A stretch of 38,308 nucleotides of DNA from Acidimicrobiia bacterium (GTDB taxonomy: Bacteria > Actinomycetota > Acidimicrobiia > Spongiisociales > ZC4RG35). Where the stretch lies: positions 1 through 38,308 of the forward strand of contig WFOA01000028.1 in NCBI GenBank assembly GCA_015488325.1. The letters are read 5' to 3'. Under the pieces are notes generated by a model. It worked only from the letters and a program-made list of their open reading frames with translations. It was not told the DNA's origin and did not search any database. The translations under genes and the position numbers were made by a program. Positions 2,493 through 27,691 of this stretch are shown here, one piece after another (position 1 is the stretch's first letter; the number at the start of each line of letters is the position of its first letter).

Positions 2493-2541
2493 GACGTCAT
2501 TGCCTCCCCATGGCCGCCATGGTACCGGCCGCCGGGGTAGC

Positions 2542-2547
2542 TAGCCT
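2542..2547 (+). promoter_or_regulatory. -10 element of a probable leaderless promoter (pgl)
   Basis: TAGCCT is followed by 8 nt and the ATG at 2556. There is no Shine-Dalgarno sequence and I see no convincing -35 hexamer. It lies in the 63-bp gap between the divergent EEP and pgl genes. Confidence 0.5.
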
Positions 2548-2555
2548 CACCGCCG

Positions 2556-3269: not shown

Positions 3270-3284
3270 GTCACGCGCCGCCCA

Positions 3285-3290
3285 TACACT
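3285..3290 (+). promoter_or_regulatory. -10 element of a probable leaderless promoter (secreted esterase)
   Basis: TACACT is followed by 7 nt and the ATG at 3298. No Shine-Dalgarno sequence is present, so the esterase probably has its own leaderless transcript. Confidence 0.5.
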
Positions 3291-3297
3291 GACGGCG

Positions 3298-4305: not shown

Positions 4306-4330
4306 TCGGGGTTCGGACCGGGTCGGAAGC

Positions 4331-4903
4331 TCAGAACAGGTACAGGGTCGGGTAGATGATGACCCACGCCAGGTCGACGAAGTGCCAGTACTTGACCACC
4401 CCTTCGACGCCCCAATAGTCGTCGGGTTCGAAATGGCCTTTCTTGCCCAGTCCCAACGCCACCGCCAAGGCGACGATGCCGGTGAAGACGTGGAAGCCGT
4501 GGAGTCCGATGAGTGCCACGAAGTTGGAGCCGTAGATCGTCCCCGGCGGGAAGTACTCCATGGCTTCCCGGAACTCGAAGACCACGCCGACGAGGAACAC
4601 CAGACCCAGGAGGATGGTGATCGACAGGTACCGGATGAGGCCTTTGCGGTCACCGTGGGCGATGGAAGTTTCCGCCAGGTAGGCGCTGATGCTGGAGGCC
4701 AGCAGCACCACCGTGATCCCGAGGGCGAGGGGCTGGTTGAGGGTGTCGGGCTTGTCGGTACCCGAGGTGACGAACCGGGCCGAGATGAAGGCGGCGAACA
4801 GGAACGCCTCGGAGGCGAAGAACAGCCACAGCCCCAGCCGGTTCGCCCGTGGCCGCCACATGGCCTCCGCCCGCTCGTGGGCGGCGCCGGCACTCAGAGC
4901 CAT
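4331..4903 (-). CDS. ctaE: Cytochrome c oxidase subunit III
   Basis: This is the 190-residue subunit III of the aa3-type terminal oxidase, an integral membrane protein with about five transmembrane helices. Typical segments are LGLWLFFASEAFLFAAFIS near the N-terminus, FEFREAMEY in the middle, and LIGLHGFHVFTGI and KYWHFVDLAWVIIYPTLY at the end, which match the COX3 signature. It carries no metal centre itself and is thought to stabilise subunit I. It is the last gene of the oxidase operon and ends 25 nt from the convergent esterase stop. Confidence 0.95.
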   Translation of the reverse strand: MALSAGAAHERAEAMWRPRANRLGLWLFFASEAFLFAAFISARFVTSGTDKPDTLNQPLALGITVVLLASSISAYLAETSIAHGDRKGLIRYLSITILLGLVFLVGVVFEFREAMEYFPPGTIYGSNFVALIGLHGFHVFTGIVALAVALGLGKKGHFEPDDYWGVEGVVKYWHFVDLAWVIIYPTLYLF

Positions 4904-4904
4904 G

Positions 4905-5116
4905 TCAGTGACCTCCTTCGAAGACCTCGTTGACGTGCATGAAGTAGCGCATGATCAGCCAGCCTTTGGCGGCGGCCAGGGGGAGCAGCCACACCAGGGG
5001 GCTGTCCAGTCCGACGGCGACGAAGTACTCGACCACCGTGAGGACGGCCAGCCATCCGGCGACCCGGATTCCGAGCCGTGCCTTCGAGCGAAGCCCGACC
5101 GCGTCTACCTGCATCG

Positions 5117-5120
<4 letters not shown>
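4905..5120 (-). CDS. Small cytochrome c oxidase subunit (prokaryotic COX4-like)
   Basis: This 71-residue protein has two predicted transmembrane segments (about residues 18-35 and 40-58) and the terminal sequence IMRYFMHVNEVFEGGH. The size, the two helices, the MHV motif and the position between ctaD and ctaE fit the prokaryotic cytochrome c oxidase subunit IV family. ATG 5120 overlaps the ctaD stop as ATGA, so translation is coupled. One base separates it from ctaE. Confidence 0.8.
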
Positions 5121-6925
<1,805 letters not shown>

Positions 6926-8299: not shown

Positions 8300-9412
8300 T
8301 CAGCGACCCGTGATCCGCTCCATCACCTTCCGGGTGAGCTCTTCGACCTCCTCGGGGTCCGCCGACCCCCGCTCCCACAGCACCTGGGTGACGGCCCTGC
8401 GGATCCGCGACTCGGTCCGCAGTGCTTCGAGGGGGTCGGGCTCGGCGGCGTTCCCGGCGGGCTCGTCGCCAGACCGCGCATCCCCGACGAGCTCGTCGAG
8501 GAGGGCCGTTCGAGCACGCACCGTCTCGGCCGCCCGATGGAGAAGCGCCATCTCCTCGGAGGTCAGTCCCAGGTCAACGATCTCCACCACACCACGCCGA
8601 CCGAGCCGTACGGGGACGCCCAGGTAGACACCCGACACCCCGTATTCGCCCTGGAGATAGGCGCAGGCGGGGACGACCCTCCCCTCGTCGCGAACGATGG
8701 CGGCCACCATGTCGGCGATCGACGCGGACGGCGCCATCCAGGCCGAACCTCGAGGTAAGAGCTGGACGATCTCGGCCCCACCGTTACGGGTCCGCTCCAC
8801 GATCTCCCCGATCCGCTCGGCGGTCAGGATCTCGGACAGCGGACGCCCCCGCACGGTCGTCAGCCGAGGGAGGGGCACCATCGTCTCCCCGTGGGATCCC
8901 AAGACGATGGCGTCCACCTCGGTGGGATGCACCCCCGTCGCCTCGGCGACGAAGTACCGGTAGCGGGACGTGTCGAGCTCCCCCGCCATGCCCACCACCC
9001 GTTCGGCAGGGAACCCGGTCACCTTCCACGTGAGGGTGGTCATCTCGTCGAGGGGGTTCGAGACGACGATGACGACGGCCGACGGAGACCGGCGGGCGAC
9101 CTGTTCGGCGACGCCGGCCACGATCTCGGCGTTCGTTCCCAGCAGGTCGGCCCGAGACTGGCCGGGTTTGCGGGGAACCCCGGCGGTGATGACAACGAGG
9201 TCGGAACCTTCGGTCGGTCCGTAGTCGGAGCCTCCGGTGATCTCGATGGTGTGGCCTCGCAGCGGCGCCGACTGGCATAGGTCGAGGGCGACCGCCCTGG
9301 CCAGACCTTCGACGACGTCCACGAGCACCAGGGACGAGGCGGTCCGGTCCTCGAGGAGGCGGAGCGCGGTGGTGGATCCCACCATCCCGGACCCGACGAT
9401 CGAGATCTTCAT
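8300..9412 (-). CDS. Malate/lactate dehydrogenase homolog with C-terminal BMC-targeting extension
   Basis: Residues 1-310 are an NAD-dependent 2-hydroxyacid dehydrogenase of the LDH/MDH superfamily: IVGSGMVGSTTA Rossmann loop, catalytic His174 in LGSHGETM, Asp147-Arg150 in LDTSR, and Arg87. Arg81 in RKPGQSR occupies the position that is Arg in malate and Gln in lactate dehydrogenases, pointing to a dicarboxylic substrate such as oxaloacetate. Unlike the family, it has about 60 extra residues. These are an acidic, Gly/Ala/Pro linker (about 315-335) and two helices, the last being VEELTRKVMERITG (356-369), which matches the motif shared by the other cargo proteins here. It is the last gene of the BMC operon, with an ATGA overlap. 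The likely role is internal NAD+ recycling inside the shell, replacing the alcohol dehydrogenase of other metabolosomes (inference). Confidence 0.85.
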   Translation of the reverse strand: MKISIVGSGMVGSTTALRLLEDRTASSLVLVDVVEGLARAVALDLCQSAPLRGHTIEITGGSDYGPTEGSDLVVITAGVPRKPGQSRADLLGTNAEIVAGVAEQVARRSPSAVVIVVSNPLDEMTTLTWKVTGFPAERVVGMAGELDTSRYRYFVAEATGVHPTEVDAIVLGSHGETMVPLPRLTTVRGRPLSEILTAERIGEIVERTRNGGAEIVQLLPRGSAWMAPSASIADMVAAIVRDEGRVVPACAYLQGEYGVSGVYLGVPVRLGRRGVVEIVDLGLTSEEMALLHRAAETVRARTALLDELVGDARSGDEPAGNAAEPDPLEALRTESRIRRAVTQVLWERGSADPEEVEELTRKVMERITGR

Positions 9413-9765
9413 GCGCCTCCTCCGTGCTCACAGCCACAACCGCATCCGAGGCGGGCCATCACCGCGGCCACCAGCTCCTCCAACCCGCCGAGACCTTCGC
9501 CCCGGGCCAGCAGCATCCTCCTGGCGACGATCCGCACCCGGGACTCCAGGGCGAGCCGCCGCACGTCGCCGCCGCCCGCCCCCGACGGGGCCGCCCGCTG
9601 CGATTCCGCCATCCCCGCCGACGTCGAGGCACCACCCAGCGACACCCCGAGGACTGCGGCCCGGTCCCGGGCGAGGGGTGTGACGATCGTCTGGTCGTCG
9701 ACGACCAGCGACGAGCCCGCCTCGGCCGCCGCCTCGACGTCGGCGACGGTGACGACCCGTCTCAC
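9409..9765 (-). CDS. Small BMC-associated protein with encapsulation-type helix and CxCxC tail
   Basis: This 118-residue protein starts at GTG 9765, which overlaps the BMC-T stop (GTGA) and has GGGAGG upstream. Residues 1-40 (VVTVADVEAAAEAG ... IVTPLARDRA) resemble a short N-terminal segment I associate with several BMC-locus proteins; I cannot confirm this by search. A Ser/Gly/Ala-rich linker follows, then a basic helix (about 65-90) and finally LEELVAAVMARLGC (95-108), the same amphipathic motif as in the other cargo proteins. It ends with Cys108, Cys110, Cys112 and His114. I do not recognise an enzymatic domain. Possible roles are cargo scaffold/assembly factor or metal/redox binding. It overlaps the malate DH homolog by ATGA. 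Confidence 0.72.
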   Translation of the reverse strand: MRRVVTVADVEAAAEAGSSLVVDDQTIVTPLARDRAAVLGVSLGGASTSAGMAESQRAAPSGAGGGDVRRLALESRVRIVARRMLLARGEGLGGLEELVAAVMARLGCGCGCEHGGGA

Positions 9766-10379
9766 GGCTCCCTCCCGGCAAGTGCCCCGAGCGCCGCGGT
9801 GGCGGCGTCCCGGGCGGTGAGGACGTCGGCTTCGCTGCCCGACACGAACAGCCGACCGTACCGACCGGCGTTGGCGACGTACACGATGTCGATGTCGGCA
9901 TGTTTCTCGGCTTCGTTGGCCGCCAGCCCCGCGTAGGCGGCCGGATACACCTCCATCACGCACAGGGTCTTGCCCGGAACGAGCAGCGAACCCTTCCTGA
10001 ACTTGTTGATGAGCTGCGCCTGGTAGGGATCGACGTTGGTGATCACCTGGCTCGAAGCCACCACCGGTCTCAGCCGATCCTCCTCGGCCACCCCCAGGTA
10101 GGCGAGGATGGCGGCGCCGGCCGCCTGCACGGCGGAGGTGTCGAACGAGTGGATCTCCAACAGCCCGAACTCCCGCTCGATGAACTGGGTCGCCGGGCGC
10201 ACCGACGCCGCCTTCAGGGCGGCGTCGGCCACCGGGAAGATCTCGTTGGACGGCGCCATCTCGACGAACAGCTCCGCCATCCCGGCGACCGGGACGTCCC
10301 CCTGGACGGTGGCACCCACGTAGGCCGCGTACTGCGGCTGCATCCGGTCGATGAACGCGTAGGCCCGGAGCTCACTCAT
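9762..10379 (-). CDS. BMC-T shell protein, double-stacking type (CcmP/CsoS1D-like)
   Basis: This 205-residue shell protein has two tandem BMC domains and forms pseudohexameric trimers. The sequence follows CcmP/CsoS1D closely: LRAYAFIDRMQPQYAAYVG at the start, ADAALKAASVRP, FIEREFGLLEIHS, SSQVITNVDPYQAQLINK and PAAYAGLAANEAEKHADI. Glu68-Arg69 corresponds to the Glu-Arg pair that gates the large central pore in CsoS1D. Such proteins stack face to face and are proposed to pass larger metabolites, which would suit a bulky N-substituted glutamate or cofactors. ATG 10379 overlaps the end of the aldehyde dehydrogenase gene by 8 nt. It is the only BMC-T in the window. Confidence 0.93.
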   Translation of the reverse strand: MSELRAYAFIDRMQPQYAAYVGATVQGDVPVAGMAELFVEMAPSNEIFPVADAALKAASVRPATQFIEREFGLLEIHSFDTSAVQAAGAAILAYLGVAEEDRLRPVVASSQVITNVDPYQAQLINKFRKGSLLVPGKTLCVMEVYPAAYAGLAANEAEKHADIDIVYVANAGRYGRLFVSGSEADVLTARDAATAALGALAGREP

Positions 10380-11856
10380 GTCGTCGTCCTCCCAACCGTT
10401 CGAGAACCCGGTGGACGAGGTCTTCCGCCATCTCGGTGCCTGTCCGTGTCGACGTGGCCATCCCCGACGGATGCTGGGATGACGACCCGAGGTCCGTCAT
10501 CTCCCGCCAGTCCCTGATCCCCCGCGCCACCCGTTTGCGGTTGATCAGATGCAACGGCCCGATGTTGTCGGCGGTGATGGTCCCGCCCCACGTGCCGGTT
10601 CCCAGCATGAACGAGGGAGGAATCCCCGCCGTCGCCCCCATGGCTCCGAACGCCGACGGAGTGTTGACCAGCACCCGGAAGGCACGCACCGCCGCCGCGT
10701 ACCGGGCCGCCACCCGTGCGTCTTCGGCCCAGATCGCCGCCGTGTGGCCATCGCCCCCGTACCGCAGCAGCTCCTGGGCTCGGGCGATCCCCTGGTCGGT
10801 CCCCTCCACCTCGTACCACTTCAGCATCGACGTGAGGATCTCCATCGACAGGGGATGGGCCCGACCGACCCCGCCGGGCCGCACGACCAGCACCTTCGTC
10901 TCCGGATCGACCCGGAACCCCGCCCGCTCGGCCAGCACCTGGGGGAACTGACCCACCGCCTCCGGTTCGATCCCCCCCTGGGGGGTGAGCACCACCGCCG
11001 CGAGCGCCTCGGTCTCGTCTTCGGTGAGGAAGCGAGCTCCCCGATCCTCGAACTCCCGCCTGAGCCGCGCCGCCATCGACCGTTCCACGATGACGGCCTG
11101 CTCGGAGGCGCAGGGGGTCCCGTTGTCGAAGGTCGAACTGGCGATCGTCCCCGAGACGCAGTCGTCGACGTCGGCGACGGACGGGTGGATGAACGACGGC
11201 ACGTTGCCCGGCCCCACCGCGTACGTGGGCTTCCCCGAGGCGTAGGCGGCCTTCACCATCGCCAGCGACCCGGTGGCCAGGACCAGATCGACCGCCCAGT
11301 GCGACCACAACTCCCGGGTCCCCGGCAGCGACACCTCGGTCATGCACTGGACCAGGTCGGCGGGCGCCCCGACCGACGCCAAGGCACCCCGCAGCACCTC
11401 GGCGGCAGCCGCCGAAGCCTCCGCGGCCCGGGGATGGGGGGCCATGACGACGGCGTTGCGGGCCTTCACCGAGATCAAGCCCTTGAAGAACACCGTCGAG
11501 ACCGGGTTGGTGGTGGGCACCAGCGCGGCGATCACCCCCATCGGCTCGGCGATCTCCACGAGGCCCGCCTCCCTGCCGGCCGCGATCACCCCCACCGTCC
11601 GCAACGGGGCGATCGCCTCGTAGACCTCGACGGCGTTGAAGAGGTCTTTGATGAGCTTGTGGTCGGCACGGCCGTATCCGGTGACGGCGACCGCCAGCTC
11701 GCTGAGTCGAGGCGCGGCATCTCGGGCGGCCTGCGACATGGCGGCCACCGCCCGATCCACATCCTCCTGGGACGCGCCCGCCCAGGCGCGCGACACCTCC
11801 CGCGCCCGGCGGGCCAGCTCCCGGGCCTGGTGGATCGAACGGAGATCCTGATCCAT
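10372..11856 (-). CDS. CoA-acylating aldehyde dehydrogenase, BMC cargo (EutE/PduP-like)
   Basis: This enzyme (494 residues) converts an aldehyde, CoA and NAD+ to acyl-CoA and NADH. The active-site Cys249 lies in TFDNGTPCASEQAV, typical of EutE, PduP and the AdhE aldehyde domain. PTTNPVST near residue 114 and GPGNVPSFI near 215 are further family motifs. Most BMC aldehyde dehydrogenases carry an encapsulation peptide; here it is at the C-terminus, after a Ser/Thr/Gly linker, as AEDLVHRVLERLGG (477-490). The frame is open far upstream, but homology begins at MDQDLRSI; ATG 11856 is 2 nt after the opine DH stop, with a GTG at 11862 as alternative. This makes the compartment a metabolosome that handles an aldehyde. 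Confidence 0.93.
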   Translation of the reverse strand: MDQDLRSIHQARELARRAREVSRAWAGASQEDVDRAVAAMSQAARDAAPRLSELAVAVTGYGRADHKLIKDLFNAVEVYEAIAPLRTVGVIAAGREAGLVEIAEPMGVIAALVPTTNPVSTVFFKGLISVKARNAVVMAPHPRAAEASAAAAEVLRGALASVGAPADLVQCMTEVSLPGTRELWSHWAVDLVLATGSLAMVKAAYASGKPTYAVGPGNVPSFIHPSVADVDDCVSGTIASSTFDNGTPCASEQAVIVERSMAARLRREFEDRGARFLTEDETEALAAVVLTPQGGIEPEAVGQFPQVLAERAGFRVDPETKVLVVRPGGVGRAHPLSMEILTSMLKWYEVEGTDQGIARAQELLRYGGDGHTAAIWAEDARVAARYAAAVRAFRVLVNTPSAFGAMGATAGIPPSFMLGTGTWGGTITADNIGPLHLINRKRVARGIRDWREMTDLGSSSQHPSGMATSTRTGTEMAEDLVHRVLERLGGRRHE

Positions 11857-11858
11857 GT

Positions 11859-13184
11859 TCACCGGTAGAAACCGAACATCCGGCACACCCCCGACTCGGC
11901 GCACTTTCCGCCCAGGGCATCCCACTCCACGTGGCGGATCATCTCCTCGGGGCTCATGCCGCCGAGGCCGAGGCTGTCGACGGTGCGACCCTCGGACCAC
12001 CAGTCGATGCCGCACATGGCGCTCGCCAGATGCACCATCGAGTCGATCGTCGGCGTCTCCACTCCGAGGGCACGACCCAGGCTCGCGATCGGCACCAGGG
12101 AGTTCGGGACGTCGTCGAGGATGTGGTTCTGGGCGAGGAAATGGCTGGGCGCGGTGAACCCCTGGTAGTAGGGGTTGCGCATGAGGGCGTCGTAGATGTC
12201 TTCGCCGACGACGTGGTAGCTCTCCCGATACCAGTCGAGCAGCGACCACACCTCCCGCAGCCCCAGCGCCCGGGCGACGGCCTGTTTCTCCCGGTCGATC
12301 TTCTCCATCACGAGACTGGCGATGGTGCGGGTCACCTGGTGCTTGTAGAACTTGAGGTCCTCGCCGGCCGCGGTGCGCTCGATCACCTGCGTGTTGAGCA
12401 TCACCGTGCCCGGATGCACCACCGGCGCCACGTTGTTCAGGCTCGTCTCCAAGACGTTCTGGGCGGGCTCGATCTGCGGGTAGAGGTCCCGCACGTACTC
12501 CATCAAGGCGTCGTTGTCGGTGGCCGGCAGCGCCGCCGCCCGCATCCGGAACTTCTCCTTCAGGATCTCGACCTTGTTCGGCCCCCGCCGTTCGGCCGCG
12601 TAGATGAACGTCTGGGTCTCCCCGAGGACGATGTTGGCCGAGCAGGCGAACCGGGTGAGGGTGCGGGCGAACTCCAGCGCCCCTCCCGTCCGACCCGGGT
12701 TGAGCAGCACCCGCTGGCCGTCTCGGAGCATCGGCGCCAGCAACGAGGCGTAGGGCCGATGGGACAGGGCGGGAGCGACCACCATGATCAGGTCCGCCCC
12801 CTTCACCGCCTCGTCGAGGCTTCGGGTGACCTTCGCCACCTTCCCGAAACCCTGCACTTCGGGTCCGATCACCTCGATCCCACCGGTCTCTTCGACCGGT
12901 GCCAGCTCCCACGAGAAGGGCGACCACAGGGTGACCTGGTACCCGAGGATGGACATGTGTCCCGCCATGGCGAGACCGCCGTTGCCACCCCCGAGCACCG
13001 ACACCTTGAGGGTGCCCGCCTTGTGGGCTCGCCGGGAGGGGTCGACCGCCCGTTCGAAAGGAACGGAGTTCGACGGCGGGGACGGCACCGAAGGAGACGG
13101 CGCCGGCTCCCGGGGAGCGGCGGTCACCCCCTGAGAGCGGAGCTCGGCGACGATCGCCTCGACGAGGTCGTCGTTGGCTGCCAT
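11859..13184 (-). CDS. Opine (octopine/nopaline) dehydrogenase-family protein with N-terminal BMC-targeting peptide
   Basis: This 441-residue protein contains a Rossmann NAD(P) domain (VSVLGGGNGGLAMAGHM from about residue 47) and an octopine-DH C-terminal domain with NNVAPVVHPG, the family's catalytic His region. Opine dehydrogenases interconvert N-(carboxyalkyl) amino acids with an amino acid plus a 2-oxo acid. The first 18 residues (NDDLVEAIVAELRS at 4-17) form an amphipathic helix followed by a Pro/Ser-rich linker to residue 46, a classical encapsulation peptide layout. It follows BMC-H by 10 nt with GGAGG upstream. It lies next to an N-alkylglutamate-type biosynthetic module, so it probably cleaves an N-substituted glutamate inside the shell to aldehyde and glutamate; this is inference, and cleavage to amine plus 2-oxoglutarate is the alternative. 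Confidence 0.88.
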   Translation of the reverse strand: MAANDDLVEAIVAELRSQGVTAAPREPAPSPSVPSPPSNSVPFERAVDPSRRAHKAGTLKVSVLGGGNGGLAMAGHMSILGYQVTLWSPFSWELAPVEETGGIEVIGPEVQGFGKVAKVTRSLDEAVKGADLIMVVAPALSHRPYASLLAPMLRDGQRVLLNPGRTGGALEFARTLTRFACSANIVLGETQTFIYAAERRGPNKVEILKEKFRMRAAALPATDNDALMEYVRDLYPQIEPAQNVLETSLNNVAPVVHPGTVMLNTQVIERTAAGEDLKFYKHQVTRTIASLVMEKIDREKQAVARALGLREVWSLLDWYRESYHVVGEDIYDALMRNPYYQGFTAPSHFLAQNHILDDVPNSLVPIASLGRALGVETPTIDSMVHLASAMCGIDWWSEGRTVDSLGLGGMSPEEMIRHVEWDALGGKCAESGVCRMFGFYR

Positions 13185-13194
13185 GCCGCCTCCG

Positions 13195-13485
13195 TTACTT
13201 CGTCTTGCCGAGGATGCTCTCGGTGTCCTGGTGCGGGCGTGGGATCACATGGACGCTGATGAGCTCTCCGACCTTGGCCGCTGCCGCCGCCCCGGCGTCG
13301 GTGGCCGCCTTGACGGCACCCACGTCGCCTCGGACCATGACGGTGACCAGCCCGCCACCGATCTGCTCTTTGCCCACGAGGGTGACGTTGGCGGCTTTCA
13401 CCATCGCGTCGGCGGCTTCGATGGCCCCGACCAGGCCCCTCGTCTCGATCATTCCCAGGGCGCTGTACCCCTGTGCTTCAGCCAT
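13195..13485 (-). CDS. BMC-H hexameric shell protein
   Basis: This 96-residue single BMC-domain protein forms the hexagonal facets of the shell. It has the usual [20 protein letters not shown] start, [15 protein letters not shown] in the middle and the HVIPRPH edge motif. The pore loop reads I42-G43-G44-G45, without the Ser found at this place in PduA (IGSG), so the hexamer pore may be wider or less polar. The ATG is preceded by AGGAGGAG at ideal distance, the strongest ribosome binding site in the operon, as expected for the most abundant shell component. It is the only BMC-H seen here. Confidence 0.97.
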
Positions 13486-13607
13486 GTTCGCTCTCCTCCT
13501 CGTGTGGGGTTCTCTCCTCTGCGGCCGGTCGGACCGCAGCTCTCCGTCGTGGTCTCTGCCGCCGAGGCGGCGGGTTCTCGCGTCGTGTGCTGTGGCGTCT
13601 CACCCCC
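13486..13607 (-). other. 122-nt intercistronic region with two hairpins before BMC-H
   Basis: This is the only sizeable gap in an otherwise tightly packed operon. It can form a 5-bp stem with a CGAG loop (GCCGC at 13558-13562, GCGGC at 13567-13571) and a second weaker structure from CTGCGG (13519-13524) and CCGCAG (13534-13539). There is no T-run, so a simple terminator is unlikely. An mRNA processing or stabilising site that raises BMC-H over upstream genes is a reasonable inference. I see no ORF in it. Confidence 0.4.
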
Positions 13608-13910
13608 TCACCGGCGGGCCTTGCTGTAGGTCGTACGGCCGTCGCGCTGCACCGAGTCGACGATCCCGACGACCGAGGCGTCGGTGGGGACCGATCCCAT
13701 CCCGGCCGCCTCCCGGGCCGCCGACCCGGTCGCCACGAGGACCACCTCTCCCTCCCCGGCGCCGACGGTGTCGGCGGCCACGAAGGGCTCCCCTCCCGCC
13801 TGGGGTTCCCCGTCGGTGTCGCAGGGAACGCACAGGAGCAGGGTGCTGCCCGTGAGCTGGGGGTCCTTCGCCGTCGCCACGGTGGTCCCGATCACCTTCG
13901 CCAACCTCAT
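13608..13910 (-). CDS. BMC-P pentameric vertex protein (EutN/CcmL family)
   Basis: This 100-residue protein caps the vertices of the polyhedral shell as a pentamer. It starts MRLAKVIGTTVATAKDPQLTG, the typical EutN/CcmL first strand. It contains FVAADTVGAGEGEVVLVATGSAAR and ends with a DASVVGIVDSV segment, all standard for the family. AAGGAG, overlapping the stop of the upstream glutamine synthetase-like gene, serves as ribosome binding site. With one BMC-P, one BMC-H and one BMC-T the locus has the minimal full set for a closed shell. Confidence 0.95.
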   Translation of the reverse strand: MRLAKVIGTTVATAKDPQLTGSTLLLCVPCDTDGEPQAGGEPFVAADTVGAGEGEVVLVATGSAAREAAGMGSVPTDASVVGIVDSVQRDGRTTYSKARR

Positions 13911-13923
13911 CTCGTCATCTCCT

Positions 13924-15240
13924 TCAGAAGGCTCCCAGGTACCGGTCCACCTCGACCTGGGTGACGGTGTTGTCCGGATCGTCCTCGCCGGAGTTCATGA
14001 CGAACTCGTGCTCCCGTCGGGCTTGTCCGACCAGGGTCTCGACGAGCATCGGATGCAGCAGGTCCCGAACGAGCTCCGAGGCCTCGAAACGTTCGATCGC
14101 CTCGGGGATCGTCGTCGGGAGCGGCTCCGCGTCGGTGACCTCGTACCCGTTGCCTTCGGTCAGCGGACCCGGATCCAGGCCATGGACGATGCCGTCGAGC
14201 CCGGCGGCGATCTGTCCGCCGATCAGCAGATACGGGTTGGCGTCGGCCGACCCGTCCCGCTGTTCGATCCTCACCGCGCTCGGCTCGCCTTCGATCACCC
14301 GGATCCCGACGGTGCGGTTGTCCATGCCCCAGGTGTTGTTCGTGGGACAGAACGTGTAGGGCTGGCGGCGCCGCATCGCGTTGGGATTGGGTGCCGACAG
14401 CAACGCCAGATCGGCCATGTGCCGCCGGAGGCCACCCAGGTATCGCCGACCCACCTCCGACAGCCGTCCGCCGTCGGAGAACACGTTCTCGCCGCCCTTC
14501 CAGAGGGACTGGTGGACGTGAAAACCGGAACCCGACTCCTCGGTGAAGGGTTTGGCCATGAAGGTGGCCAACATGCCGTGTTCTGCGGCGATCTCCTTCA
14601 CCGCATGGCGGAACAACAGCGCGTTGTCGGCGGCGGTGACGGCGTCGGTGTAACGGAGGTTCACCTCGAACTGACCCGGGGCGTACTCGGGGTTGGAGAC
14701 CTCCACCAGGATCCCGAACTCGGTGCAGAGGTTGCGGATGGGCCCGACGACGAACTCGAACTGTTTCGCCCGCGCCAGCCCGTAGACGTCGATGCCGACG
14801 TCGCGGGGACGCCTGGTCTCGGGGTCGAGCAGGTAGAACTCGAGCTCGGTCCCCACCATCACGTCGTATCCGAGGTCGGCGGCGCGTTCCACGGCCGTCA
14901 GCAGCGCGTTCCGGGGATCGACCGGTACCGGGGCGTGGTCGATCACCTCCTCGGAGCGGCATATCGTCAGCACCACCCCCTCCTCCCAGGGAACCTTCCG
15001 CAGCTTCCCCGGGATGGGGACGATGTGGACGTCGGGGTACCCGTTGTCGAAGTTCCCGTACGGGGTGTCCCAGATGTCACAGGTCATGTCCATCTGGAAG
15101 AGCGCGTTGGCGAGAGCCACGCCGTGGTGGGCGGTCCGCTCCCACATGTTCGCCTGCAGACGTTTGCCCCGGGCGATCCCGTTGAGATCGCCGATCGCCA
15201 GCACCACGGTGTGGGTGCCTTCGGGAAGTGTGTCGATCAC
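13924..15240 (-). CDS. Glutamine synthetase-family gamma-glutamyl-amide ligase (GmaS/GlnT/PuuA-like)
   Basis: This 438-residue protein has the GS beta-grasp start (VVLAIGDLNGIARGKRL), the catalytic core (GTELEFYLLD, FEVNLRYTDA, GSGFHVHQSLW) and the NNTWGMDNRTVGIRV and RIEQRDGSADANPYL segments. It lacks the adenylylation-site region of standard GlnA and is shorter, as in enzymes that ligate glutamate to an amine using ATP (gamma-glutamylmethylamide, -ethanolamide or -polyamine synthetases). GTG 15240 is chosen because GAGGAGGAGG lies just upstream; an in-frame ATG at 15276 lacks such a site. It follows the three glutamate-synthase-like genes, the same partnership as gmaS with mgsABC. No targeting helix is seen at either end, so it is probably cytosolic. 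Confidence 0.85.
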   Translation of the reverse strand: MIDTLPEGTHTVVLAIGDLNGIARGKRLQANMWERTAHHGVALANALFQMDMTCDIWDTPYGNFDNGYPDVHIVPIPGKLRKVPWEEGVVLTICRSEEVIDHAPVPVDPRNALLTAVERAADLGYDVMVGTELEFYLLDPETRRPRDVGIDVYGLARAKQFEFVVGPIRNLCTEFGILVEVSNPEYAPGQFEVNLRYTDAVTAADNALLFRHAVKEIAAEHGMLATFMAKPFTEESGSGFHVHQSLWKGGENVFSDGGRLSEVGRRYLGGLRRHMADLALLSAPNPNAMRRRQPYTFCPTNNTWGMDNRTVGIRVIEGEPSAVRIEQRDGSADANPYLLIGGQIAAGLDGIVHGLDPGPLTEGNGYEVTDAEPLPTTIPEAIERFEASELVRDLLHPMLVETLVGQARREHEFVMNSGEDDPDNTVTQVEVDRYLGAF

Positions 15241-15269
15241 AGCCCGTCCTCCTCCTCTCCGATCACCGG

Positions 15270-16688
15270 TCACCATGTGTACGGCCGGTCGATGCCTGCC
15301 AAGGGCACCCCGGTGAAGGCCGAAGCCTCCAGACTCAGCGCCCGCAGGTCCTCTTTCTCCAGGTTGTGGACGCTCGACTTTCCGCAGGCCTTGGCCAGCA
15401 GGCTGATCTCCATGGTCCAGGCGGTGAGCAGGCGTGCCACCCGCTCGGCCCCGGCCGCCACGTCCATCCGCTGTTCGAGCTCGGGATCCTGGGTGGTGAT
15501 CCCGACCGGGCAGCGGCCCGTGTGGCAGTGATGGCAGCGGCCCGGCGACGTGCCGAGGGCCTCGTAGTCGTCCAGGTATCGGGGTGAGTTACACCCCAAC
15601 GCCATGAGGGCGGCGAAACCGATCATCACGCAGTCGGCACCGAGGGCCAGGCATTTGGCGGCGTCGGCACCCGACCTGATCCCCCCAGCGGCGACGAGCT
15701 TCACCTCGTCGGCGAGGCCCGCCTCCTCCAAGGCTTCGCGTGCCGCCGGGATGGCCGACATGGTGGGGATCCCGGTGTGGTCCAACAGCAGTTCGGGCGA
15801 CGCCCCGGTGCCGCCCTCGGCGCCGTCGAGGACGATCACGTCGGCGCCCGCTTTGGCGGCGATCGCCACGTCCCACCGGGGCCGTGTCGCCCCCATCTTC
15901 ACGAAGATGGGAACCTGGTATCCGGTGGCCTCCCGCAACTCTTCGATCTTCACCTTGAGGTCGTCGGCACCGAGGAAGTCCGGATGGCGCACCGTGGAAC
16001 GCTGGTCCACCCCCACGGGGAGGGTCCGCATGCTCGCCACCCGTTCGGGGATCTTCATGCCCAACAGCACGCCACCCGTCCCCGGCTTGGCTCCCTGGCC
16101 GACGACGATCTCGATCCCGTCGGCCATGCGGAGATGCTCCAGGTCGAGCATGTAGCGGCTCGGCGTCATCTGGTAGACGAGGATCTTCGACGCCTCCCGC
16201 TCGTCCTCCAGCATGCCCCCCTCGCCGGTGCAGGTCATGGTGCCCACCTTGGTTGCGCCGTAGCCGAGCGCAGCCTTCGCCGAAGCGGAGAGCGCGCCGA
16301 ACGACATCGACGCGATGTAGATGGGGATGTCGAGCTCGATCGGTTGTTCCACCAGACCGGGTCGGTCACCCAGCACCGTCTTGGTGTCACAGCTCTCCCG
16401 ATATCCCTCCAGGGGCAGCCGGGTCATGGTGGCCGGAACGAACACCAGGTCGTCGAGGGTCGGGAACCGGGTGTTGAACGTGGAGAACCCCCGAATCTGG
16501 TAGCGGCCGAGCTGGGCGACGGCGTGGGCATCGGCGATGGCCTCGGGGGTCCACCGCGGCGATTTGCCTCGGTCGTAGGAGGAAGGAACCCCGGCGGGGC
16601 GACCGGGGACCGCCCCGTCGCCGAACGCCACCACGTCTTCGTCGGGCGGCCCAAAAGGGTATTCGCGGTCGTTCAGATCATCAGCCAT
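15270..16688 (-). CDS. FMN/Fe-S glutamate-synthase-like subunit (MgsC/GlxD type)
   Basis: This 472-residue protein corresponds to the FMN-binding synthase domain of GltB as a stand-alone subunit. MSFGALSASAKAALGYGA, GEGGM, GQGAKPGTGG and DGAEGGTGASP form the (beta/alpha)8 FMN and 2-oxoglutarate site. CHHCHTGRCPVGI supplies the cysteines of a [3Fe-4S]-type cluster. In N-methylglutamate synthase the homologous subunit (MgsC) works with separate amidotransferase-like and GXGXG subunits, exactly the set encoded here. The gene overlaps its upstream neighbour by 16 nt. There is no encapsulation peptide. Its electron donor (ferredoxin or NADPH) cannot be told from the sequence. Confidence 0.9.
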   Translation of the reverse strand: MADDLNDREYPFGPPDEDVVAFGDGAVPGRPAGVPSSYDRGKSPRWTPEAIADAHAVAQLGRYQIRGFSTFNTRFPTLDDLVFVPATMTRLPLEGYRESCDTKTVLGDRPGLVEQPIELDIPIYIASMSFGALSASAKAALGYGATKVGTMTCTGEGGMLEDEREASKILVYQMTPSRYMLDLEHLRMADGIEIVVGQGAKPGTGGVLLGMKIPERVASMRTLPVGVDQRSTVRHPDFLGADDLKVKIEELREATGYQVPIFVKMGATRPRWDVAIAAKAGADVIVLDGAEGGTGASPELLLDHTGIPTMSAIPAAREALEEAGLADEVKLVAAGGIRSGADAAKCLALGADCVMIGFAALMALGCNSPRYLDDYEALGTSPGRCHHCHTGRCPVGITTQDPELEQRMDVAAGAERVARLLTAWTMEISLLAKACGKSSVHNLEKEDLRALSLEASAFTGVPLAGIDRPYTW

Positions 16689-17368
16689 GCGCGTGAGTCC
16701 CTACTGTCGAAGTACCAGAGCTTCTGGGCGGACACGATCTTCTTCCAGTCCCGACCGGCGTCGTCGAGCCCCCGGCTCGCCAGCAGCTTCTCGACCGCTT
16801 CGACCTCGGCCGGTTCGGGTTCGACCACCTTGGTGTCGACGCCGAGGGAGGCGATCGGGCCCGCCACCCACACCTCGCCACCCCACAGAGAGTCGGCGCA
16901 GGCGTCCCCGGCCCCGCCGAGGGCGATGATCCTCCCGGCGTGGGCCATGAAGCCGCTCAGGTAGCCGATCCGGCCCTCGACGATGATGTCGCCGCCTTTC
17001 ATGGCGACGCCGCAACGGGGCCCGGCGTCACCCCGGACGTGGATCAGCCCTCCCCGCATCGAGGCTCCGGCGCTCATCCCGACGTAGCCTTCGACGAGGA
17101 TCTCGCCCGCCGCCATCGCCTCTCCGAGACCCCAGCCGGCGTCTCGGGTGATCTCGATGTGGGCCCCGTTGTTGAGCCCTCCGCAGTAGTAACCGACGCT
17201 GCCTTCGAACCGCACCTTCGCCCCGTCGGGCAGGCCGATCCCGAGGTTGTGACGGGAGAGGGTGTTGGTGACCACGACCTCGTTCCCGGCGGCGATGGCC
17301 GCTCGGATGTCGTCGTTGATCGCCTTGATCGGCCGGTCGCCCACCTCGACGTACGCCACCGCGGTCAT
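16673..17368 (-). CDS. GXGXG-motif glutamate-synthase-like subunit (MgsB/GlxC type)
   Basis: This 231-residue protein is equivalent to the C-terminal right-handed beta-helix of GltB. Repeated Gly motifs are visible: VGYYCGGLNNGAHIEI, GYVGMSAGASMRGG, DAGPRCGVAMKGGDIIVEG and GYLSGFMAHAGRI. It is not catalytic in GltB but has a structural role between the glutaminase and synthase domains. ATG 17368 overlaps the amidotransferase stop as ATGA. About 40 residues beyond the beta-helix (from PEPAEVEAVEK on) form a helical C-terminal tail. Confidence 0.9.
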   Translation of the reverse strand: MTAVAYVEVGDRPIKAINDDIRAAIAAGNEVVVTNTLSRHNLGIGLPDGAKVRFEGSVGYYCGGLNNGAHIEITRDAGWGLGEAMAAGEILVEGYVGMSAGASMRGGLIHVRGDAGPRCGVAMKGGDIIVEGRIGYLSGFMAHAGRIIALGGAGDACADSLWGGEVWVAGPIASLGVDTKVVEPEPAEVEAVEKLLASRGLDDAGRDWKKIVSAQKLWYFDSRDSRAWLMI

Positions 17369-18309
17369 CGCATCACCTCCACCATCCCGACGGCCCAGGT
17401 GGCCGTCTGGTCGGGACCGTCGAAGGTCCGCACCGCGACCTCCCCCGGGTAGACCTTCCGCACCGCCTGTTCTTCGGTGGCGATCGCCAGGTCGGGGCCG
17501 TCCTCCACCGCGGCGAGGGGTTTGATGGCCCAACGGTCCTTCGCCATCCCCAACCGGTCGGCGGTGGTGATGAGGTAGGTGAAGACCCCGTCGAGGGCTC
17601 GGAGGCTCCGTTCGAGGGCGGACTCCAGGTCGTGGCCTTTCGCCATCTGGTCGGAGATCCACACGGCGATGAGCTCGGAGTCGTTCTCGGTGAGGAATCG
17701 ATATCCCTTGCGGGTGAGTCGGTCTTTCAGCAGGAAGTAGTTGGTGAGCTGGCCGTTGTGGACGATCGCCACGTCGGGGAAGGGGCGCGCCCAGAACGGA
17801 TGGCTGGCGGTCGGTGACACCTTCGACTCGGTGGCCATCCGGGCGTTGGCGATGCCGTGGGTTCCGACGAAGGTGGCGACCCGGTGCTTGGCCGCCACCT
17901 CCTGGGCGGTCCCCACGTCTTTGACGATCTCCAGGGACCGACCCACCGACTGGATCTGGAATCCGCCGATGGCGTCGGCTCGGGCCACCCAGTCGGCCAG
18001 GTCGACCCGGGGTGGGGAGACGATCATCCTCACCGAGACGTGACGCTGTCCGGTGTCGTCCCACGTCGGGTCTTCCAGGAAGTCTCCGCCGCAGTCCCGC
18101 AGCACCCCGAGGAAGGTCTCCAGATCCGCCGAGAGTCGCCGGCGGTCGTCTCCGACCACCCGCACGATGTATCCGTCGTCTCGGCGCTCCCCGTAGAGGG
18201 CGAAACCCGTGGAGTCACCTCCGCGGTGGACCATCGCCTCCATCATGGCGACGAGGTCGGCACCGACGGTGCCCGGCCGCCCGAGGATCCTGCCCGCTAT
18301 CCCGCACAT
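17365..18309 (-). CDS. Class II glutamine amidotransferase-like subunit (MgsA/GlxB type)
   Basis: This is a 314-residue Ntn-hydrolase of the GATase type 2 fold, as in the N-terminal domain of GltB and in MgsA. The protein begins Met-Cys-Gly-Ile-Ala-Gly, and Cys2 becomes the N-terminal nucleophile after Met removal. This decides the start at ATG 18309, although the frame is open to 18345. GTHGIANARMATES, HNGQLTNYFLLKDRL and TENDSELIAVWI provide the glutamine-site residues. In the N-alkylglutamate setting it may act on a gamma-glutamylamide rather than glutamine. It is the first gene of the BMC operon, behind an 88-bp region with the candidate GntR operator. Confidence 0.9.
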   Translation of the reverse strand: MCGIAGRILGRPGTVGADLVAMMEAMVHRGGDSTGFALYGERRDDGYIVRVVGDDRRRLSADLETFLGVLRDCGGDFLEDPTWDDTGQRHVSVRMIVSPPRVDLADWVARADAIGGFQIQSVGRSLEIVKDVGTAQEVAAKHRVATFVGTHGIANARMATESKVSPTASHPFWARPFPDVAIVHNGQLTNYFLLKDRLTRKGYRFLTENDSELIAVWISDQMAKGHDLESALERSLRALDGVFTYLITTADRLGMAKDRWAIKPLAAVEDGPDLAIATEEQAVRKVYPGEVAVRTFDGPDQTATWAVGMVEVMR

Positions 18310-18353: not shown

Positions 18354-18375
18354 TGAATACTGAATACAGTGTACG
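18354..18375 (-). promoter_or_regulatory. Candidate operator of the BMC operon
   Basis: TGAATACAGTGTACG lies at 18361-18375, 52 bp before the first gene of the BMC operon. It contains the palindrome TACA-G-TGTA, and a second TGAATAC directly precedes it (18354-18360). The same 15-bp element, with three purine transitions, lies upstream of the permease (20424-20438), so a common regulator, probably the local GntR protein, is inferred. TACACT within it may be part of the -10 region; no good -35 is visible. Confidence 0.6.
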
Positions 18376-18397: not shown

Positions 18398-18973
18398 TCA
18401 GTCGAGGTCGACCAGATGCAGGAGGAGCGAGAGCTGGTCGTCGGCTTCCTCCGGTCGGATCGGCACCGTGTAGGGCGGAAGCGGCGGGAAGTACATGGCG
18501 GTGATCGTCCCCGGCAGCGGCACGATCGTCACCAACCTCCCCTCGGGTGTGTCGACCACCTCGATCTTCTTCAACTCGGCCTTCGTCGCCAACGAGGTCG
18601 TCCGACGGTCACCGAGCCGACGGGCGAGGTCGCTCCCCGACCCTCTCTTCGTCACGAAGGCTCCCTTGTCGAACCGGTATTCGAGCTCGGTGGCTCCCCC
18701 GCCGTCCACGGGGGAGCCACGTTTCGCCACCCACTGGGTGTCGATCAGGGCACCGAACATCCTGAAGATCCCGGAGAACCCGACCTCGACCGTCAGATCC
18801 GCTCGCACCCGGACCCGGGCGTAGCGGGCGTCGGCCTCGTCGACTTCCACCCGTCCGGCACCGAAGCGCCGCACCAGGGCGCCGGTCGGAACCTCCAACA
18901 GCCGTCGGCGTCTCGACCGGTAGAGACGTTTCGCCCGACTCCTGGGCCCGAGGGGGCGCCGCGAGCCGGTCAC
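18398..18973 (-). CDS. Conserved-looking protein of unknown function, co-transcribed with the permease
   Basis: This 191-residue protein starts at GTG 18973, overlapping the permease stop (GTGA), with AGGAG close upstream. The N-terminal 25 residues are strongly basic (RSRAKRLYRSRRRRLLE). The rest alternates beta-type segments, e.g. ARVRVRADLTVEVGFSGIF, IDTQWVAKRGSP and TELEYRFDKGAFVTKRG, and ends with a Pro-rich LPPYTVPIRPEEADDQ stretch and an acidic C-terminus. There is no signal peptide, transmembrane helix or cofactor motif. I do not recognise the family. Its place between the importer and the BMC operon suggests a role in the same pathway, but nothing more can be said. Confidence 0.65.
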   Translation of the reverse strand: MTGSRRPLGPRSRAKRLYRSRRRRLLEVPTGALVRRFGAGRVEVDEADARYARVRVRADLTVEVGFSGIFRMFGALIDTQWVAKRGSPVDGGGATELEYRFDKGAFVTKRGSGSDLARRLGDRRTTSLATKAELKKIEVVDTPEGRLVTIVPLPGTITAMYFPPLPPYTVPIRPEEADDQLSLLLHLVDLD

Positions 18974-20423: not shown

Positions 20424-20457
20424 TGGATACAGTATGCGTCGTACAACCGCCCTGCAA
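20424..20457 (-). promoter_or_regulatory. Promoter and candidate operator of the permease
   Basis: On the minus strand TTGCAG (20457-20452), 17 nt, TACTGT (20434-20429). The -10 hexamer lies inside TGGATACAGTATGCG (20424-20438, plus-strand reading), which matches the BMC operon element at 12 of 15 positions, with all differences A/G. A repressor bound here would block the -10 directly. Confidence 0.6.
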
Positions 20458-20551: not shown

Positions 20552-20557
20552 TACGAT
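20552..20557 (+). promoter_or_regulatory. -10 element of the GntR-family regulator
   Basis: TACGAT overlaps the ATG at 20556, so that ATG would lie upstream of the transcription start. Transcription from here would begin near 20564 and leave a short leader with AAGGGAGAG before GTG 20586. This supports the GTG as the true start. Confidence 0.45.
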
Positions 20558-20585
20558 GCATCCCGGATACGAAGGGAGAGGGTTC

Positions 20586-21284
20586 GTGCCCAAGCTCAGG
20601 AAGATCAGTACCAGACCCTCCCGCCTCGCCGATCAGGTCTACGGACGTCTGATGGCGGCGATCCTCGACGGAACGATCGGCCAGGGGGACCGACTCATCC
20701 AGGAGAAACTGGCCGAGGACCTGGCGGTCAGCAGGACCCCGGTACGAGAAGCGCTGCTGCGCCTCGAACGGGAAGGGGTCATCGAGCAGGCGGGACGGAA
20801 GGGTTTCGTCGTGAAGACCGTGTCCGAGGAGATGATCCGCTCCATCTACCAGGCCCGCGAAGCGGTCGAAGGGTACGCCGCCCGTGTCGTGGCGGAACGG
20901 TCCGATCCGGAGACGATCGACCGCCTGGCCCAGCGGATCGCCGGCCTCGGCCCCGCCGCCAACATCGAATCATCCTACGAGGCGAACCGTCTCGCCCACC
21001 GGGCGATCGTCGAAGCGACCGGCAACGAGTACCTCGTCGAGCTGTTCGACGCCATCTGGGGCAAGACCATCGCCGTGAAGATCTTCGCCGACCTGTGGAT
21101 GGCGGAGGCGATCCACCGTCCCGTCACCGACCTCCACGCCGAAGTCCTCGAGGCGCTGCGTTCGGGCGACGGCGACCGGGCGGCCAAGGTGATGGTCGAG
21201 CACATCCGGGAAGGCCTCGACCAACAGCTCGACGTCTTGGAGCGACGGGAGCCGAAGCCCCAGGGTCAGTCGATGACCCGGTAA
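20586..21284 (+). CDS. GntR-family (FCD subgroup) transcriptional regulator
   Basis: This 232-residue regulator has the GntR winged helix at residues 10-75 (LADQVYGRLMAAILDGTI, EKLAEDLAVSRTPVREALLRLE, GFVVKTV) and an FCD ligand-binding domain (YEANRLAHRAIVEATGNEYL, HRPVTDLHAEVLEALRSGD). The FCD metal-site His residues are visible. Proteins of this type are mostly repressors released by a carboxylic acid or amine-pathway metabolite. It is divergent to the permease and is the only local regulator near the BMC operon. GTG 20586 has GGGAGAG upstream; ATG 20556 is less likely. Its 3' end overlaps the convergent flavin reductase gene by 19 nt. Confidence 0.9.
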   Translation: MPKLRKISTRPSRLADQVYGRLMAAILDGTIGQGDRLIQEKLAEDLAVSRTPVREALLRLEREGVIEQAGRKGFVVKTVSEEMIRSIYQAREAVEGYAARVVAERSDPETIDRLAQRIAGLGPAANIESSYEANRLAHRAIVEATGNEYLVELFDAIWGKTIAVKIFADLWMAEAIHRPVTDLHAEVLEALRSGDGDRAAKVMVEHIREGLDQQLDVLERREPKPQGQSMTR

Positions 21285-21745
21285 CCGCCCCGGAAGAACC
21301 CGAGGGCGGGGCGGTCGGCGTCGTCGGCCAGGTCCATGGCGACCACCCGCCCCACGAAGATCGTGTGGTCTCCACCCTCGTAGGCGTGCTCCGGCGCGCA
21401 TTCGAAGCGGGCCAACGCCCCCGACAGCAACGGCACGCCGAGGGTCCCCGCCGTCCACTCCAGGCCCTCGAACCGGTCGATGTCGCGGGTGGCGAACCGT
21501 TGAGCCAGGTCCTTCGAGTCGGCGGCGAGCACGTGAACGGCGAATCCCGGACCTTCGGAGAACGCCCGGTGGGTCCCCGCCGTCTTCGCCACCGACACCA
21601 GCACGAGCGGCGGGTCGAGGGAGACCGACGTGAACGAGTTGGCGGTGAGGCCGACCGGACCGCGCTCGGGGTCGAGGGCGGTGACGACCGTCACCCCGGT
21701 CGCGAACTGGCCACAGGCCTGGCGGAATTCCATCGGGTCGATCAA
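21266..21745 (-). CDS. Flavin reductase-like protein (HpaC type)
   Basis: This 159-residue protein has the split-barrel flavin reductase domain: FRQACGQFATGVTVVTA, GLTANSFTSVSLDPPLVLVSV and FAVHVLAADSKDLAQRFA. Such proteins reduce free FMN/FAD with NAD(P)H to feed a two-component monooxygenase, or act as flavin carriers. No monooxygenase is found in the window, so its partner is unknown. The start is probably TTG 21745 (GAGGGAG upstream); ATG 21733 is an alternative. It overlaps the GntR gene tail to tail. A weaker copy of the BMC/permease operator lies just upstream, so it may belong to the same regulon. Confidence 0.85.
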   Translation of the reverse strand: MIDPMEFRQACGQFATGVTVVTALDPERGPVGLTANSFTSVSLDPPLVLVSVAKTAGTHRAFSEGPGFAVHVLAADSKDLAQRFATRDIDRFEGLEWTAGTLGVPLLSGALARFECAPEHAYEGGDHTIFVGRVVAMDLADDADRPALGFFRGGYRVID

Positions 21746-21765
21746 CTCGGCTCCCTCGTCTCGGG

Positions 21766-21780
21766 TGACGCCAGTGTACG
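21766..21780 (-). promoter_or_regulatory. Weaker candidate operator upstream of the flavin reductase
   Basis: TGACGCCAGTGTACG matches the BMC operon element at 12 of 15 positions, including an identical CAGTGTACG, and lies about 20 bp upstream of the flavin reductase start. A chance match cannot be excluded in so short an element. Confidence 0.35.
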
Positions 21781-21812
21781 ACCGGCCGCCGACAGAGGCC
21801 GCCCCTGCGACC

Positions 21813-24145: not shown

Positions 24146-24148
24146 GGG

Positions 24149-27644: not shown

Positions 27645-27678
27645 GCGTGAACCTCCCTTTCGTCTCCGTTGCCCCGAC

Positions 27679-27684
27679 CATACT
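27679..27684 (+). promoter_or_regulatory. -10 element of a probable leaderless promoter (sodX)
   Basis: CATACT is followed by 7 nt and GTG 27692. This and the missing ribosome binding site before ATG 27701 argue for GTG as start. Confidence 0.4.
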
Positions 27685-27691
27685 CGCACCG

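Follow-up and report, generated by a model that had tools for sequence, protein, structure and literature searches.

The 38,308-nucleotide stretch analysed here (the window; contig WFOA01000028.1 of an Acidimicrobiia bacterium, assembly GCA_015488325.1) carries an operon of eleven genes in which bacterial microcompartment (BMC) shell proteins and a CoA-acylating aldehyde dehydrogenase (ALDH) are encoded together with an opine dehydrogenase family protein (OpDH), a glutamine synthetase-like ligase (GlnT) and three subunits related to N-methylglutamate synthase (MgsABC). This is a real, conserved and rare metabolosome-type locus, and OpDH is likely to be its signature enzyme. We give about even chances to its being a metabolosome that breaks down a small primary amine by way of an N-alkylglutamate, OpDH and the acylating ALDH. 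The fuller proposal, to which we attach somewhat less than even confidence, is that it represents a new metabolosome class, in which a signature enzyme of opine dehydrogenase fold has changed sides, oxidises N-alkylglutamates supplied by a glutamine synthetase/glutamate synthase-like pair and frees an aldehyde within the shell, a saccharopine-like route for the breakdown of primary amines; in two of the loci (L051 and L073, below) a flavin oxidase would have taken over the NAD-linked step, leaving another role to the OpDH-like protein.

Organization of the operon

All eleven genes are open and lie on the minus strand between positions 18309 and 8300, in the order from mgsA to the malate dehydrogenase homologue (MDH) given below, and their Pfam and NCBIfam assignments agree with the original prediction, which had been made from the sequence alone.

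17365..18309, minus: mgsA/glxB-like class II glutamine amidotransferase subunit (MgsA), starts MCGIAG; PF13537/PF13522 over cut-off
16673..17368, minus: mgsB/glxC-like GXGXG subunit (MgsB); PF01493, 56.6 bits
15270..16688, minus: mgsC/glxD-like FMN glutamate synthase-domain subunit (MgsC); PF01645, 313.9 bits
13924..15276, minus: divergent glutamine synthetase-like gamma-glutamyl-amide ligase, GlnT/GmaS-like; PF00120, 295 bits
13608..13910, minus: BMC-P shell pentamer (EutN/CcmL); PF03319, 105.4 bits
13195..13485, minus: BMC-H shell hexamer; PF00936, 104.6 bits; EutM model, 134.9 bits (cut-off 133)
11859..13184, minus: OpDH, opine dehydrogenase family, with an encapsulation-peptide-like N-terminal helix and Pro-rich linker; PF02317 (Octopine_DH), 126.9 bits
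10372..11862, minus: CoA-acylating ALDH with an encapsulation-peptide-like C-terminal helix; PF00171 over cut-off; tail EMAEDLVHRVLERL
9762..10379, minus: BMC-T shell trimer, CcmP-like; PF00936, 32.7 bits; CcmP model, 246 bits (cut-off 340)
9409..9765, minus: small protein of 118 amino acids, with a small N-terminal domain and a helical tail; no Pfam or NCBIfam matches; homologues in L003 and L004
8300..9412, minus: MDH with an encapsulation-peptide-like C-terminal extension; TIGR01763, 375.5 bits (cut-off 351.85); tail EEVEELTRKVMERITG

The junctions are tight nearly everywhere, as had been claimed, and as read from the sequence seven of the ten are overlaps of 4–16 nt. Those in the mgs block measure 4 (MgsA/MgsB), 16 (MgsB/MgsC) and 7 nt (MgsC/GlnT), and those in the distal half 4 (OpDH/ALDH, given a GTG start), 8 (ALDH/BMC-T), 4 (BMC-T/small protein) and 4 nt (small protein/MDH); the remaining three junctions are gaps of 13 (GlnT–BMC-P), 122 (BMC-P–BMC-H, the sole long spacer) and 10 nt (BMC-H–OpDH). 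Genes for a shell hexamer, trimer and pentamer stand together with that for an acylating ALDH in one locus, and the prediction that it is of metabolosome type is supported. The best PDB matches of the window MDH are malate dehydrogenases.

Conservation of the locus and relationships of OpDH

An initial contig scan gave five loci with OpDH relatives (L003, L004, L005, L006 and L007), and searches at an E value of 1e-60 matched the window OpDH in 15 of 395 genomes at class level and in 31 of 396 at phylum level, with G000 and G007 among both sets. The same cut-off gave matches to the L005 OpDH in 4 of 349 genomes of the class of G585 (G585 again included). The core set of MgsABC, GlnT, BMC-P, BMC-H, BMC-T, OpDH and ALDH is common to the window (genome G000) and five other Actinomycetota genomes: G007 (L003/L066), G101 (L004/L067), G881 (L005), G585 (L051) and G895 (L073). 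L003 and L004 are labelled Acidimicrobiia and L005 Thermoleophilia, and G881 and G895 share the class of G585. L003, L004 and L005 each hold the full core plus MDH, which is present in four of the five other loci. Only L003 and L004 have the small protein as a gene of its own, and a permease encoded upstream of the window operon recurs in L003 only, L051 and L073 having no match to either protein. OpDH follows BMC-H in the window, L005, L051 and L073, and MDH in L003 and L004. Because the core recurs in five other genomes with altered order, the grouping is not due to chance, and the co-occurrence of OpDH and the MgsABC/ligase module with shell genes, proposed earlier as a check, is seen in all six loci of this kind.

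In a comparison with L003, L004 and L005, the window OpDH, MgsABC and GlnT are closest to those of L003/L004, and its ALDH, MDH, BMC-P, BMC-H and BMC-T are closer to those of L005, a pattern that looks as if shell, ALDH and MDH had been swapped as a block.

Among the other OpDH matches, neighbourhoods were examined for 9 of the 12 from the class, 5 of the 28 from the phylum and the single one (G818) from the class of G585. Apart from 29-residue MgsC matches in two, the 14 regions from the class and phylum searches contain no shell, GlnT or MgsABC matches, and L006 and L007 have OpDH with no matches to other window genes on their contigs of 6.1 and 8.0 kb. BMC genes occur in 74 of 296 genomes of the class (PF00936, E value 1e-10), three of which are the known carriers of the OpDH-type locus. 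We also considered and rejected the idea that this is the common BMC of Acidimicrobiia, as five other BMC regions lack MgsABC, GlnT or OpDH matches within the stretch. Four of them (L106–L109, in G022 and G001 and as second loci of G007 and G101, which thus have an SPU-like BMC locus besides the OpDH-type one) encode DeoC, three BMC-P proteins and an ALDH 27–28% identical to that of the window, and look SPU-like; a RpiB-like frame was read by eye in G022, and the fifth region (G140) is of a different kind again.

The window OpDH contains both the Octopine_DH helical domain and the Rossmann domain, and its best PDB match is 1bg6, by sequence and by fold. A tree of 48 rows (six BMC OpDH proteins, three sisters, 38 other relatives and 1bg6, with the partial matches in G616 and G663 left out) places the six BMC proteins in one clade (99/95), sister to those of L006, L007 and L072 (the locus in G818), the nine together having 100/100 support. 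The 38 others are 36–43% identical, and 23 positions set the nine-row clade apart from them. Shell genes were not found on the contigs of the three sisters, and searches for more sisters at an E value of 1e-80 matched the centre genome only (1 of 247 and 1 of 297, the listed non-matching genomes being the same in both). In the plasmid collection the OpDH matches share no more than 33.5% identity among the best 10 of 13, and the L072 OpDH has no match at 1e-60.

Among the more distant OpDH relatives at about 40% identity, those of Acidimicrobiia and of family f64 adjoin a protein of about 540 amino acids, judged by eye to be one family, in seven of eight neighbourhoods (L053 6563–9369, L061 6823–9827, L055, L060, L062, L063 and L065, where it is incomplete); both of those tested (L053 and L061) have a B12-binding domain, forming an opine dehydrogenase-like/B12 pair.

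In all six BMC loci OpDH begins with a short helix-like stretch that leads into a linker rich in Pro, Gly, Ser and Ala, with L073 seemingly carrying two such stretches in tandem (by eye), and in the three sisters no more than about 13 residues precede the Rossmann strand. In the structural model of the window OpDH, residues 2–18 form a helix (pLDDT about 60) and residues 19–46 (pLDDT below 50) lead into the enzyme. MDH has a C-terminal tail in the window, L005 and L073 and an N-terminal extension in L004 and, by eye, L003, and ALDH has a long C-terminal tail in the window, L005, L051 and L073. The model of the small protein contains helices at H65-87 and H92-107, and its helical tail resembles that of MDH. 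Position, linker and family habit point to probable encapsulation; hydrophobic moment is not decisive.

Proposed pathway and alternatives

The mgsABC and gmaS genes, with mgdABCD, constitute the N-methylglutamate pathway, and the redox cofactors of the synthase are described as unknown in the available part of PMC6237917. The window MgsC is 51–57% identical to plasmid proteins of the N-methylglutamate synthase type (best 30 of 242 matches at an E value of 1e-60) and 38–39% identical to two proteins of L077 and L078; in the MgsC tree it lies with the plasmid GlxD/MgsC-type proteins and apart from L077 and L078, with 100/100 support. Six of the plasmid regions with MgsC relatives were fetched and five annotated, and all five have the amidotransferase-GXGXG-FMN trio and glnT, accompanied in two (L083 and L085) by sarcosine-oxidase-type subunits and folD and in one (L082) by an FAD oxidoreductase. 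The window MgsA is 30–34% identical to five plasmid-borne GlxB-type proteins and 38–41% to proteins of L072, L077 and L078. The MgsA and MgsC trees each contain a single BMC clade, and the GlnT tree does not resolve the BMC group with respect to L072. As MgsC is near the N-methylglutamate synthase type but the ligase is divergent, the synthase step has probably been kept and the amine changed; since the ligase is only about 30% identical to the known type, that amine is probably not methylamine.

For two of three ALDH proteins tested the best model is TIGR02518 (acetylating acetaldehyde dehydrogenase; window 469.6 bits, cut-off 620.1) and for the third it is that of bifunctional acetaldehyde-CoA/alcohol dehydrogenase, all three scoring under cut-off. 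The L005 operon continues beyond MDH, without a change of strand, into genes for an acyl-CoA dehydrogenase and a crotonyl-CoA carboxylase/reductase (Ccr; 515.9 bits, cut-off 378.55). The ALDH model preference and the L005 Ccr weakly suggest acetyl-CoA as the product, and a C2 amine is our favoured guess for the substrate.

Two comparisons bear on the aldehyde. In L072 the genes for GlnT, OpDH and an aldehyde ferredoxin oxidoreductase (AFOR) family protein stand in a row (30-nt gap, 8-nt overlap), with MgsA and MgsB divergent, on a 14-kb stretch without a shell match that also encodes a further AFOR-family protein, part of another, a Transp_cyt_pur permease and an EutQ-like cupin; the OpDH is 64–70% identical to those of L007 and L006. 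Because a second kind of aldehyde-oxidising enzyme adjoins OpDH here, this single case suggests that OpDH makes an aldehyde. In L051 (10055–11377) and L073 (9315–10577) the NAD-binding loop of OpDH reads GDEGVA in place of GGGNGG, although these proteins retain the conserved histidine and a cargo-type N-terminus, and a gene of the N-methyl-tryptophan-oxidase/soxA_mon type lies beside the GntR gene (the two copies being 71% identical), with no match in the available stretches of the window, L003, L004 and L005. Given the loss of NAD-binding glycines and the presence of an N-alkyl-amino-acid-oxidase-type gene in these two related loci, a flavin oxidase may replace NAD-linked oxidation of an N-alkyl amino acid there. 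Both cases speak for a reaction in which an N-substituted glutamate is cleaved and yields an aldehyde.

Near the OpDH gene of L007, on the opposite strand, are pylD, pylC, a pylS of C-terminal type and pylB (2100–6283), in a metagenome-assembled genome labelled Deltaproteobacteria. Pyrrolysine is used in methylamine enzymes, and these genes fit an amine-using organism.

The pathway that we propose builds on the gene content, cargo-type termini, conservation and co-inheritance read from the sequences. The amine would be imported by an APC-family permease and joined to glutamate by GlnT with ATP, giving a gamma-glutamyl amide as expected for the ligase family, and MgsABC would shift it to the alpha position, as its counterpart does in the methylamine pathway, to give an N-alkylglutamate. 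Within the shell, OpDH would use NAD+ to oxidise the N-alkylglutamate at the alkyl carbon, a side unusual for opine dehydrogenases, releasing glutamate and an aldehyde. The acylating ALDH would turn the aldehyde into acyl-CoA, most likely acetyl-CoA if, as we guess, the substrate is an ethylamine-like C2 amine, and malate dehydrogenase could reoxidise NADH by reducing oxaloacetate to malate. Glutamate-forming saccharopine dehydrogenase likewise converts an N-substituted glutamate to glutamate and an aldehyde. The aldehyde product had been predicted at the outset, and it fits both the acylating ALDH and the aldehyde oxidoreductase beside the shell-less relative.

A number of observations weigh against this pathway. 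To our knowledge, known opine dehydrogenases act on a carboxylate-bearing carbon, and the OpDH residues show no sign of a change of side. The window GlnT scores 223 bits against TIGR03105 (type III/GmaS-type; cut-off 469.6), compared with 671 and 640 for GlxBCD-linked plasmid GlnT proteins, and is only 29–31% identical to five plasmid GlnT proteins. For encapsulation the hydrophobic moment fails to discriminate: the OpDH N-termini lie between the 53rd and 99th percentiles of their own proteins; the ALDH tail is absent from L003 and L004, and the ends without it (89th and 99th percentile, respectively) score as high as the tailed ones. The L051 stretch lacks MDH. As to the product, the window's own genome has no match to PF06130 PTAC (PduL), and Ccr passes its cut-off in G585, G895 and G881, on the Thermoleophilia side, but in none of the three Acidimicrobiia genomes G000, G007 and G101. 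The L072 comparison comes from one contig, perhaps foreign, of a genome that is 76% complete with about 5% contamination; L006 and L007 have no match to the L072 aldehyde oxidoreductases or GlnT on their 6–8 kb contigs; and the L072 MgsA groups with L077 and L078, such that the L072 Mgs genes may be ordinary glutamate synthase (GOGAT) genes, because the L077 trio is followed by a GltD-like subunit. The flavoenzyme comes from two related loci, and that of L073 scores below the cut-offs of the N-methyl-L-tryptophan oxidase and soxA_mon models.

Other explanations are less probable. OpDH could keep the usual opine chemistry, splitting an amino-acid-derived opine at the carbon that bears the carboxylate, so as to yield an amino acid plus a 2-oxo acid, with the aldehyde arising elsewhere and the glutamine synthetase (GS)/GOGAT-like module recycling nitrogen; it is, after all, closest to N-(1-D-carboxyethyl)-L-norvaline dehydrogenase (1bg6), the histidine of VVHP/VMHP is kept, and the best model of the permease is a general amino acid transporter. 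We nonetheless regard this as unlikely, as it leaves unexplained the acylating ALDH as a shell partner, the AFOR in the shell-less operon, and the N-alkyl-amino-acid-oxidase-type gene in the two loci with an altered NAD loop; the departure of the nine-row clade from its 38 relatives at the 23 positions noted may also count against it. It is distinctly improbable that MgsABC and GlnT are an ordinary ammonia-assimilating GS/GOGAT variant that supplies glutamate and handles no amine: the failure of the window GlnT in the type III model that plasmid GlnT proteins pass would be accounted for, as would the nearness of MgsA to proteins that in one set (L077) adjoin a GltD-like gene, but there is no GltD-like gene among the eleven, MgsC sides with the plasmid GlxD/MgsC-type proteins, and the block accompanies OpDH and shell genes in six loci.

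Opine dehydrogenases serve reductively as an NADH sink in some invertebrates, and OpDH could do so for ALDH within the shell, with the signature enzyme elsewhere. Its cargo-type N-terminus, its position next to the NADH-producing ALDH and the lack of an alcohol dehydrogenase among the eleven genes all fit; we consider this still less probable, since an MDH with a cargo-type tail is already available in the window, L005 and L073, the changed NAD loop speaks against the role in two loci, and the shell-less OpDH keeps company with GlnT and AFOR. Least probable is the same pathway acting on methylamine and formaldehyde, that is, the N-methylglutamate pathway moved into a shell. The plasmid MgsC relatives do adjoin sarcosine-oxidase-type subunits and folD, genes of a kind that serve methylamine (in the accessible portion of PMC6237917), and the window encodes a formate-tetrahydrofolate ligase (34906–36645); however, the GlnT is divergent, a CoA-acylating ALDH of acetaldehyde type is an unlikely outlet for formaldehyde, and neither FolD nor PurU is encoded among the eleven genes.

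Known systems and flanking genes

The N-methylglutamate pathway (gmaS, mgsABC, mgdABCD) likewise has a ligase and a three-subunit glutamate-synthase-like enzyme in one operon, but includes MgdABCD where the window operon has OpDH, the acylating ALDH and shell genes, and its ligase is only about 30% identical; mgdABCD was looked for within the operon alone and is absent from it. Metabolosomes of the EUT, PDU, SPU and MIC types share BMC-H, BMC-T, BMC-P, acylating ALDH and terminal helices of apparent cargo type with the locus, whose eleven genes include neither a PTAC nor the usual signature enzymes, and instead OpDH and MgsABC–GlnT. Within the available text of the 2014 BMC census, a lactate/malate dehydrogenase-type gene is reported for MIC1 and PVM loci, and loci with ALDH and an incomplete core are termed MIC (PMC4207490). 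OpDH shares both domains, the fold and the conserved histidine with opine dehydrogenases such as 1bg6 and octopine dehydrogenase 3c7a, but has a cargo-type N-terminus and genetic partners that point to an aldehyde product. The likeness to glutamate-forming saccharopine dehydrogenase is one of proposed logic only.

Our literature search found no paper joining a BMC with an opine or saccharopine dehydrogenase, nor one joining an AFOR with an opine dehydrogenase. The main text of the 2021 census (PMC8217296), in the part available, does not mention opine, glutamine or glutamate, although an unnamed type in its supplement is possible; that of the 2014 census (PMC4207490), likewise in part and with its supplement outside our scope, does not mention opine, octopine, glutamine synthetase or glutamate synthase; and in the available part of PMC12263773 microcompartment appears in a cited reference. 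Many metabolosome types have an aldehyde dehydrogenase but no obvious signature (aldehyde-making) enzyme, as the accessible 2021 text relates (PMC8217296), and the OpDH locus could be one of these. The sequence amine, glutamate adduct, aldehyde and acyl-CoA may be a chemistry new to microcompartments in the literature searched. The locus provides a concrete candidate aldehyde source with a testable reaction, and the reactive aldehyde a reason for the shell; the shell-less operon with an aldehyde oxidoreductase and the two loci with the flavoenzyme gene are natural comparison cases. If correct, the proposal would extend opine dehydrogenase chemistry and supply new components with which to convert amines.

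The claim that no known signature enzyme is present holds for the operon, and we note that a gene for a DeoC aldolase (24149–25105) sits about 4 kb upstream of that for the permease. It is one of three genes near the GntR gene (21266–25105), the others encoding a flavin reductase-domain protein and an ordinary aldehyde dehydrogenase. SPU-type BMC loci are marked by DeoC-type pfam01791 and RpiB-type pfam02502 (PMC8217296, in part), and an SPU assignment by way of this DeoC was rejected, as it is not conserved; DeoC and the flavin reductase have no match in the available stretches of the five other loci, where the ordinary aldehyde dehydrogenase matches the BMC ALDH weakly and nothing else. Neither DeoC nor RpiB is among the eleven genes in general family scans, with no search having been aimed at RpiB. 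A nickel superoxide dismutase gene (27228–27791) and the formate-tetrahydrofolate ligase gene are also in the window, with no operon link seen.

Immediately upstream of the operon are the following features.

18361..18370, minus: motif ACTGTATNCA, upstream of mgsA; pattern search
18398..18973, minus: 191-amino-acid protein adjoining the permease here and in L003; no family matches; 43% identical in L003
18970..20379, minus: APC-family amino acid/amine permease from its likely ATG (frame open from a TTG at 20457); PF13520; also in the L003 locus
20424..20433, minus: motif ACTGTATNCA, upstream of the likely ATG of the permease; pattern search
20556..21284, plus: divergent GntR/FCD regulator; PF07729, PF00392

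Among NCBIfam models the permease scores 112 bits with TIGR00909 and 72.7 bits with the ethanolamine permease model, all below cut-off. A GntR homologue lies beside mgsA in all five other BMC loci. ACTGTATNCA has two matches in the window against 0.01 expected, the pattern having been picked after inspection, and ACTGKATNCA is also found upstream of the L003 permease gene and of mgsA in L004. The motif is common to the regions upstream of the permease gene and mgsA, and the permease and the 191-amino-acid protein probably belong to the same system as the operon.

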